Both the position numbers and the translations under genes were made by a program. Source: Clostridiales bacterium (GTDB lineage: Bacteria > Bacillota > Clostridia > Oscillospirales > CAG-272). From it: a stretch of DNA of 64,000 nucleotides. Under the pieces are notes generated by a model. It made no database searches and was not told the origin of the DNA. It was given only the letters and a program-made list of their open reading frames with translations. Positions 23,483 through 63,967 of this stretch are shown one piece after another. Position 1 is the stretch's first letter; every line of letters begins with the position of its first letter. The stretch is taken from the NCBI GenBank assembly GCA_022793655.1, contig JAAWDG010000010.1, positions 1-64,000 of the forward strand. The letters run 5' to 3'.

Positions 23483-23833
23483 TGGTGGAGACGAGGGGAG
23501 TTGAACCCCTGTCCGCACATTCTTCCTCAAGACCTTCTCCCGGTACAGTCAGTCTATTGTATTTCCCTTGATGCCGCGGGCTGACACGCCGCGCATTTCG
23601 GTATTTCGCTAAGGTGTGACGGGGCCGCGAAAAAACCTCCGTTCACATTTACCGCGTTTCTAACACCCGCTTATCCGTCCGCGGTATACGGGGCGGATGC
23701 GCATGCCCTTAGGCTGCGAGAGCTACTTTATTATCGTTAGCGTTTAATTTTAAGGTTGGGACTTTTCAGAGATTTCCCAGCTCTACCGGCTTATATCCTG
23801 ATTCTTAATACACGTCGAAACCCTTACGTCCCC
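23483..23833 (-). ncRNA. ssrA: Transfer-messenger RNA (tmRNA)
   Basis: Read leftward, the 5' end GGGGACG (23833) pairs with CGTCTCC before ACCA at the 3' end (23483), including the G3-U pair that specifies alanine. The T arm GGTTCAACTCC is intact. The tag frame at 23741-23709 reads ANDNKVALAA then TAA, so the tag is (A)ANDNKVALAA. tmRNA rescues stalled ribosomes with SmpB. Its 3' end is the prophage integration site, and integration has left a complete gene at this junction. Confidence 0.95.
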
Positions 23834-56926: not shown

Positions 56927-56956
56927 TTGACAAAACAAAAAAGATTATGCTATAAT
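56927..56956 (+). promoter_or_regulatory. Promoter of the tyrA leader
   Basis: TTGACA (56927-56932), 18-bp spacer, TATAAT (56951-56956) with an extended TGC. Transcription should start near 56963, about 28 bases before the leader peptide. Confidence 0.8.
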
Positions 56957-56990
56957 TATTTTAGTTTAAATTTAGATAGGAATTTTAAAA

Positions 56991-57050
56991 ATGATTTGTT
57001 TTGCAGTCAACTTAGATACTTATTATTGCTATTACTTAACTAAAAAGTAA
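56991..57050 (+). CDS. Tyrosine-rich leader peptide of the tyrA attenuator (19 aa)
   Basis: ATG with ATAGGA ten bases upstream. The peptide is MICFAVNLDTYYCYYLTKK; codons 11-15 are TAT TAT TGC TAT TAC, four Tyr of five residues. It lies between a strong promoter and a terminator ahead of tyrA. Ribosome stalling at these codons when Tyr-tRNA is scarce would change the folding of the RNA downstream, as in the trp and pheA leaders of enteric bacteria. Confidence 0.8.
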   Translation: MICFAVNLDTYYCYYLTKK

Positions 57051-57124
57051 TAGTGGTTTTTGCTGCATTTAATTCATTTGTTTTTCAGTTCCGCAGTTTA
57101 AATCACTGCGGAACTTTTATTTTT
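57029..57124 (+). promoter_or_regulatory. Transcription attenuator of tyrA (1:2, 2:3 and 3:4 hairpins)
   Basis: Hairpin 1:2 is a perfect nine-pair stem (57029-57037 with 57045-57053) that includes the last Tyr codons. The antiterminator 2:3 pairs 57052-57066 (AGTGGTTTTTGCTGC) with 57093-57107 (GCAGTTTAAATCACT), 13 of 15 positions. Terminator 3:4 is a perfect ten-pair stem (57088-57097 with 57105-57114) followed by TTTTATTTTT. A ribosome stalled at Tyr codons would free segment 2 and favour read-through. A ribosome at the stop codon would cover it and favour termination. Confidence 0.8.
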
Positions 57125-57142
57125 GCAAAGAGGTGATAAAAT

Positions 57143-57973
57143 ATGGTTATTGGAATTGTAGGACTGGGACTCATCGGCGGTTCATTGGCAAAGGCTTCTA
57201 AAAAATATGGCAACTATACGGTATATGCATACGATATCCAAGAAACTTCCCTACAAAAAGCGCTAGAGGACAAAGCCATCGACAGTCCCCTGACTGAAAA
57301 GAACATTTCAGCCTGTGATTATATTTTCATCTCGCTCTATCCAAAGGCTGTCATTGAATTTGTTGAAAAACATGCTGCGCTTTTTCAAAAAGACGCAGTC
57401 GTTATTGACTGTGCCGGTGTAAAAAGAAGCGTATGTGAACCTTGTTTTCGCATAGCCGAACAACATGGTTTTACCTTCATCGGCGGACATCCCATGGCTG
57501 GCACACAGTTTTCCGGCTATGAACATGCTAAAGACACTATGTTTTGGAACGCGCCCTTTGTACTGACGCCAAAACAAAATGAAGACGTACTTGTCTTAGC
57601 GAAGGCAAGAGAGGTAATCATTTCGCTTGGCTTTGGCCGTGTTTCAGTTATGACGCCTGAACGGCATGATAAATTAATTGCATTTACGTCACAGTTAGCC
57701 CATGTCGTCTCAAACGCTTATGTCAAAAGTCCCAGCGCACCTGAGCGCAAAGGCATTTCAGCAGGCAGCTATAAAGACTTAACCCGCGTTGCTTATCTTA
57801 ATGAAACCATGTGGGCCGAGCTTTTCTTGGATAACCACGATCATTTAACCGCAGAAATTGACCATCTAATTGTTGAACTGCAAAAATACAGTCAAGCCAT
57901 GAAAACCAACGATTTCGACACACTGCGCGAGCTTTTAAAAGAAGGAAAAATCGCCAAAGAACAAGCTGATTAA
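57143..57973 (+). CDS. tyrA: Prephenate (or arogenate) dehydrogenase
   Basis: Makes the last dedicated precursor of tyrosine. Rossmann motif GIVGLGLIGGSLAKASKK at the N-terminus, the conserved GGHPMAGTQFSGYEHA with the catalytic His region, and SQLAHVVSNAYV in the helical C-terminal domain. At 276 residues it lacks an ACT domain, so feedback by tyrosine may rest on the transcription attenuator upstream. It is not clustered with other aro genes. Start follows AAAGAGGTG. Confidence 0.9.
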   Translation: MVIGIVGLGLIGGSLAKASKKYGNYTVYAYDIQETSLQKALEDKAIDSPLTEKNISACDYIFISLYPKAVIEFVEKHAALFQKDAVVIDCAGVKRSVCEPCFRIAEQHGFTFIGGHPMAGTQFSGYEHAKDTMFWNAPFVLTPKQNEDVLVLAKAREVIISLGFGRVSVMTPERHDKLIAFTSQLAHVVSNAYVKSPSAPERKGISAGSYKDLTRVAYLNETMWAELFLDNHDHLTAEIDHLIVELQKYSQAMKTNDFDTLRELLKEGKIAKEQAD

Positions 57974-63784: not shown

Positions 63785-63860
<76 letters not shown>

Positions 63861-63880
63861 ATATATCTTGATTCAATCAA

Positions 63881-63967
63881 TGGTGCCGCTGACCGGACTT
63901 GAACCGGTACGGTATTGCTACCGAGGGATTTTAAGTCCCTTGCGTCTGCCAATTCCGCCACAGCGGC
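63881..63967 (-). tRNA. tRNA-Leu (anticodon TAA)
   Basis: Acceptor GCCGCTG/CAGCGGC with encoded CCA, anticodon loop CTTAAAA and a long variable arm (CGGTAGCAATACCG), as expected for a class II leucine tRNA. 87 bases. Confidence 0.95.

Follow-up and report, generated by a model that had tools for sequence, protein, structure and literature searches.

What controls tyrA, the gene for prephenate dehydrogenase, in a clostridial genome that has no T-box in front of it? Leader-peptide attenuation is textbook knowledge in Proteobacteria; in Firmicutes, where T-boxes prevail, it counts as an exception. The question is raised by the tyrA gene at positions 57143-57973 (PF02153 and PF20463 domain matches) of the first 64,000 nucleotides (nt) of contig JAAWDG010000010.1, from a Clostridiales bacterium of the Oscillospirales lineage CAG-272 (GCA_022793655.1). 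This whole stretch is referred to as the window and its genome as G000; coordinates of tyrA and its leader are on the forward strand. A first-pass annotation had proposed a complete tyrosine-specific attenuator upstream of the gene. Based on the sequence analyses described here, the tyrA leader is very probably a ribosome-mediated, trp-type transcription attenuator that senses charged tRNA-Tyr, and a Tyr-only derivative of a leader with mixed Phe and Tyr codons found before aroF.

The leader begins with a sigma-70-type promoter at 56927-56956, which consists of TTGACA (56927-56932), an 18-nt spacer and TATAAT (56951-56956) preceded by TG, and matches the consensus at 12/12 positions. A Shine-Dalgarno (SD) sequence, AGGA (56978-56981), precedes an open reading frame (ORF) of 19 codons at 56991-57050, which encodes MICFAVNLDTYYCYYLTKK followed by a stop codon. 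Codons 11-15 read TAT TAT TGC TAT TAC, so that four of the five specify Tyr (57021-57026 and 57030-57035). Strand 1 of a 1:2 stem lies over these codons at 57025-57037 and pairs with strand 2 at 57045-57057, which contains the stop codon of the ORF (57048-57050). Nine canonical pairs are formed (57029-57037/57045-57053), and the stem is extended to 13 pairs when G-U pairing is included. Next, the 5' strand of an antiterminator, AGTGGTTTTTGCTGC (57052-57066), forms 13 of 15 pairs with GCAGTTTAAATCACT (57093-57107), a strand that overlaps the 5' arm and loop of an intrinsic terminator hairpin at 57087-57115. This hairpin has 11 pairs (57087-57097/57105-57115), a 7-nt loop and a U-rich tail at 57116-57125. 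In the predicted fold, the 1:2 hairpin is enclosed by an outer protector stem, in which UGCAGU (57002-57007) pairs with GCUGCA (57062-57067), the latter overlapping the antiterminator strand. The SD region of tyrA, AGAGGTG, follows at 57129-57135.

Compared with dinucleotide shuffles, the fold of 56963-57124 has a z-score of -4.6 and the terminator alone one of -7.3, and the antiterminator duplex is better than 200/200 shuffles. The region holds each part of a trp-type attenuator: a short, presumably translated ORF whose codon run specifies the pathway product, a 1:2 protector over that run with a stop codon at which a ribosome ending translation would cover strand 2, and an antiterminator and terminator that exclude each other, the terminator ending in a U run. 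The consensus promoter, the 19-codon ORF with its Tyr-Tyr-Cys-Tyr-Tyr run, the 9-pair stem over the last Tyr codons and the 13-of-15 antiterminator were all described in the first-pass annotation and are borne out here. The terminator and its U run are likewise present, with 11 pairs in place of the ten that had been counted, and the outer stem is an addition to that annotation.

From this anatomy and the known logic of trp-type systems, the coupling, stalling and tyrosine response can be pictured as follows. Transcription would start from the promoter at 56927-56956, with a ribosome translating the 19-codon leader behind RNA polymerase. When Tyr-tRNA is scarce, the ribosome would stall on TAT TAT TGC TAT TAC and melt the 1:2 stem along with the outer one; the freed strand at 57052-57066 could then pair with 57093-57107, blocking the terminator and allowing tyrA to be transcribed. 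When Tyr-tRNA is plentiful, the ribosome would reach the stop codon in strand 2 and cover the antiterminator strand, and the terminator at 57087-57115 would form. The same terminator is expected when the leader is left untranslated, with the inner and outer stems holding the antiterminator strand.

This arrangement is conserved in two relatives. In G001, whose TyrA is encoded by a gene 95% identical to that of the window, the leader is MVDFAVNLYAYYYYYLIKK; in L036, a metagenome-assembled genome (MAG) from sheep colon with a 71% identical tyrA, it is MTKSFAAISYYYCYYFENR. Both keep the -35 box of the promoter, the leader SD (AGGA in G001, AGGAG in L036) and an ORF that differs in length by a multiple of three. 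The Tyr runs of the two relatives read AYYYYY and YYYCYY; the Cys codon of the window is replaced by Tyr in G001, and the run contains no Phe in either the window or G001. The full stem set (1:2 stem, antiterminator and terminator) is kept in both. Across the three tyrA leaders, 90/90 pair cells are standard, the outer stem is 100% paired, and six terminator pairs are changed on both sides through compensatory changes in L036. These counts come from a model-fitted alignment, as the L036 terminator arm was wrongly aligned by MAFFT. No variation is seen in the upper four pairs of the terminator (CAGU/ACUG), which are also used by the antiterminator; this would be expected if the strand has to fit two partners. 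An alignment with related genomes had been suggested along with the first reading of the locus, and orthologous leaders devoid of Tyr codons or stems had been named as evidence that would overturn it; in G001 and L036 the opposite was seen.

We also found that the tyrA leader has a much larger set of relatives in front of aroF, a DAHP synthase gene that heads an aroF-tyrA operon in the window's family. A covariance model, R1, built from the window and G001 leaders, served as the genome-wide screen of G000 for further leader peptides and gave a single match there, the tyrA leader locus itself; it matched L036 at E 8e-12. In addition, R1 matched aroF leaders at E-values from 4e-7 to 7e-4: those at the head of the aroF-tyrA operon in relatives, about 1.1 kb upstream of tyrA, at 1e-4 to 7e-4, and those of other families at 4e-7 and 1e-6. 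Viral contigs contained no relative. The aroF leaders carry mixed Phe/Tyr runs, for example FAFAYYYFYFIK, MMQNVFAFAYYYFYFIK (L009) and a peptide beginning MAAVFFAAAYVFYFYFYFICDK (L038), and a peptide has on average 4.1 Tyr and 5.0 Phe residues. Among 63 aroF upstream regions, mainly from the window's family, 56 contain an SD-preceded short ORF in which at least five of eight residues are Tyr or Phe (at least seven in 33 of them), compared with 0.7% of dinucleotide shuffles and 1/63 reverse complements. A terminator lies within the last 220 nt in 73% of aroF upstream regions versus 8% of shuffles.

The pairing logic is shared as well. In 33/48 cases, a set that includes the three tyrA leaders, the stretch lying between codon run and terminator forms a better duplex with the 5' arm of the terminator than shuffled sequences do (p<=0.05). 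When 37 matches were fitted to R1, 93% of pairs were standard, compensatory changes occurred in 30/30 pairs, and 161 double-change cells were counted against 38 in shuffles, while slid partners were only 35-51% paired. The outer stem is 90% paired in these matches, with all six of its pairs compensated. Because this alignment was fitted to the structure, the independent duplex test (33/48) provides the more neutral support. The footprint of a ribosome at the stop codon overlaps the antiterminator strand in the window leader and in 67/86 leaders, and the leader ORFs of other families end at the same place or some codons beyond, in frame through strand 2. The geometry of the stalled ribosome fits in 86/86 leaders; this count is partly built into the choice of strand and is not used as evidence.

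Beyond the window's family, an ORF with a Tyr/Phe run is present upstream of aroF in 34/44 regions from the remaining families of the order and in 17/40 from other orders of the class, chiefly where aroF is most similar. ORFs of up to 45 residues were allowed in these two analyses, so the chance rate is slightly above 0.7%. By family labels, about 36 families have the leader, the window's family included; those relatives that bear a name are MAGs assigned to Clostridia, Clostridiales and Oscillospiraceae. At least two other families of the class, f47 and f51, have a T-box before aroF in place of the leader; such upstream T-boxes, with the leader peptide absent, were noted in L218 and L222. A glmS ribozyme (RF00234) was noted near aroF at L170 435-589, in a genome of family f11, where it presumably belongs to a neighbouring gene. 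Tyrosine attenuation by ribosome stalling had been called unusual and poorly described for Clostridia. It does appear to be undescribed, but it is no isolated oddity, given the homologous leaders before aroF throughout the family and order and in part of the class.

Since mixed Phe/Tyr leaders that are homologous to it stand before aroF over this range, the tyrA leader can be regarded as a Tyr-only derivative. No homologue of the relatives' aroF was found in G000. The one DAHP synthase that this genome has belongs to a different type and lies directly behind the acetate kinase gene ackA (G000:C22:148631-149527; L072, L082); a leader before this gene was considered and rejected, as it follows ackA too closely. 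In the TyrA tree, the window clade (G000, G001, L035 and L036) is well supported and joins the TyrA proteins linked to aroF, where the exact branching is unsettled. Most simply, this history can be read as a loss of aroF from the operon in the window lineage, which left the old leader abutting tyrA. Such leaders are not a general property of tyrA, since seven tyrA genes that do not stand behind aroF have none (L014, L015, L018, L022, L023, L027 and L033). Nor is the loss of Phe unique to this split: some aroF leaders (L012, L091 and L103) likewise have only Tyr, or almost only Tyr, in their runs, so that re-tuning to Tyr would not be peculiar to this lineage.

Could the leader respond to a broader signal than tyrosine alone, such as Phe together with Tyr, Cys, or a general slowing of translation? 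The mixed codons of the homologous aroF leaders suggest so, as do the Cys codon within the window run, the Phe codon at position 4 of the window ORF and the Phe just after the run in L036. However, the codons at which a stall would open the stem in the window and G001 are Tyr only, apart from the one Cys that is Tyr in G001, and a ribosome halted at the Phe codon in position 4, within the outer-stem strand, would be too far upstream to expose strand 2. We consider a broader signal unlikely. We regard nascent-peptide arrest of the TnaC kind, in which the peptide would bind free tyrosine and stall the ribosome, as very improbable. Many leaders do share a weakly conserved FA-A motif before the aromatic run, but its FA codons fall on a strand that takes part in RNA pairing, residues outside the run vary freely, and the number and order of Tyr and Phe vary too; moreover, a stall at high tyrosine would activate the gene just when there is no need for it. 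There is an equally slim chance that the hairpin is a fixed partial terminator which damps tyrA constitutively beside a fortuitous Tyr-rich ORF. Terminators are indeed frequent and the ORF is a short one, yet the Tyr-run ORF, the antiterminator and the 1:2 pairing are conserved far beyond the shuffle and reverse-complement controls.

The least probable alternative, to which we give almost no credence, is that a T-box or another known RNA regulator was missed by eye. T-boxes are indeed common in G000, with about ten matches on other genes, including (by names given from reading the sequences) a leuA-like gene, gatA, a trpB-like gene, pheST and a cysE-cysS pair. At the tyrA leader there is no match to RF00230 and no T-box antiterminator sequence, in agreement with the first-pass annotation. 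No Rfam family reached its threshold in the window leader, the best sub-threshold match being far below cut-off. Phe_leader, Trp_leader and the other leader models listed gave no match in the window, whether at gathering score or with the limit relaxed to E 10, and none in 12 aroF leaders up to E 1. The clostridial aroF/tyrA leader is absent from Rfam release 15, and such leaders are thus likely to be unannotated. With about ten T-boxes and a leader peptide in one genome, both mechanisms would be used side by side. The G000 T-boxes lie on C1, C7, C15, C18 and C24 (L073-L080), and two on C15 are about 2.7 kb apart, each before a protein that starts with an XRE-like helix-turn-helix.

Several observations weigh against a trp-type, tyrosine-sensing attenuator. 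The terminator (-17 kcal/mol) thermodynamically outweighs the antiterminator hairpin with its 26-nt loop; the switch must therefore be a kinetic one, as is normal for such systems. A Cys codon interrupts the Tyr run. The known tyrA-type leaders number just three, of which two are close to each other, and the 37-match alignment, besides being fitted to the structure, includes one row that is a reverse-strand match of L105. Finally, in the sister genome L035 (JAFXCQ010000013.1, ~1560-1710) a promoter and SD are followed by tyrA without a leader. This is a natural leader loss inside the tyrA-leader clade, and the control is thus dispensable. Attenuation by a ribosome that reads Tyr codons nevertheless has the support of the complete anatomy, the conserved Tyr-run leaders and the stem covariation.

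In the surroundings, mgtE lies downstream of tyrA after a gap of about 250 nt, and tyrA of the window is taken as monocistronic. The window also contains a tmRNA gene and two tRNA genes, at 23483-23833 (-) and 63788-63967 (-).

Taken more widely, there is apparently a widespread, undescribed clostridial Phe/Tyr attenuator that in the window has been narrowed to tyrosine. On balance, we favour a scenario in which, in many clostridial families, entry into aromatic amino-acid synthesis is governed by an old family of leader attenuators, T-boxes replace it in others, and it was re-tuned to tyrosine alone as the operon shrank to tyrA. The aroF leaders were found in dozens of families, mostly uncultured gut-type clostridia. 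If this scenario is true, aromatic synthesis in a large part of the class would be under leader attenuation by default, and the specificity of a leader could be re-tuned as its operon changes. It would also offer a mapped contrast between leader and T-box at one gene, useful for asking why one mechanism replaces the other.

The codon run, 1:2 protector, 2:3 antiterminator and 3:4 terminator of the Escherichia coli pheL and trpL attenuators are the classical form of this logic. The tyrA leader follows the same logic but shows no sequence relation to them detectable with Rfam models, and differs in genes and amino-acid specificity, the E. coli systems being those of Proteobacteria. Firmicutes T-boxes of aromatic genes do the same job from the same position, before aroF in f47 and f51, but bind uncharged tRNA directly without a leader peptide. 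Our literature search, which mostly did not extend to subscription journals, found no tyrosine leader attenuator and no clostridial aroF leader. The closest described case by gene is uORFC-13-1, a predicted upstream ORF with Phe codon(s) before aroF in Acholeplasma and environmental sequences (24 sequences; PMC8632094). Compared by description only, it shares the predicted ORF beside an intrinsic terminator and aroF, the gene regulated in the relatives of the tyrA leader, and differs in having Phe only, with no Tyr run mentioned, and in not lying on tyrA. Within Firmicutes, His leader-peptide attenuators have been predicted in the Bacillus cereus group, Peptostreptococcaceae and Erysipelotrichales (PMC9413887; PMC2965389). 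These likewise join a codon-run peptide, an antiterminator and a terminator in Gram-positives, replacing T-boxes, but use His codons and serve the his operon and the hisZ/hisS genes. In Staphylococcus aureus, a leucine-rich attenuator peptide is reported (PMC5794164). The kind of mechanism is therefore already known, Firmicutes included, whereas its specificity, the gene it controls, its breadth and its derivation appear to be new.
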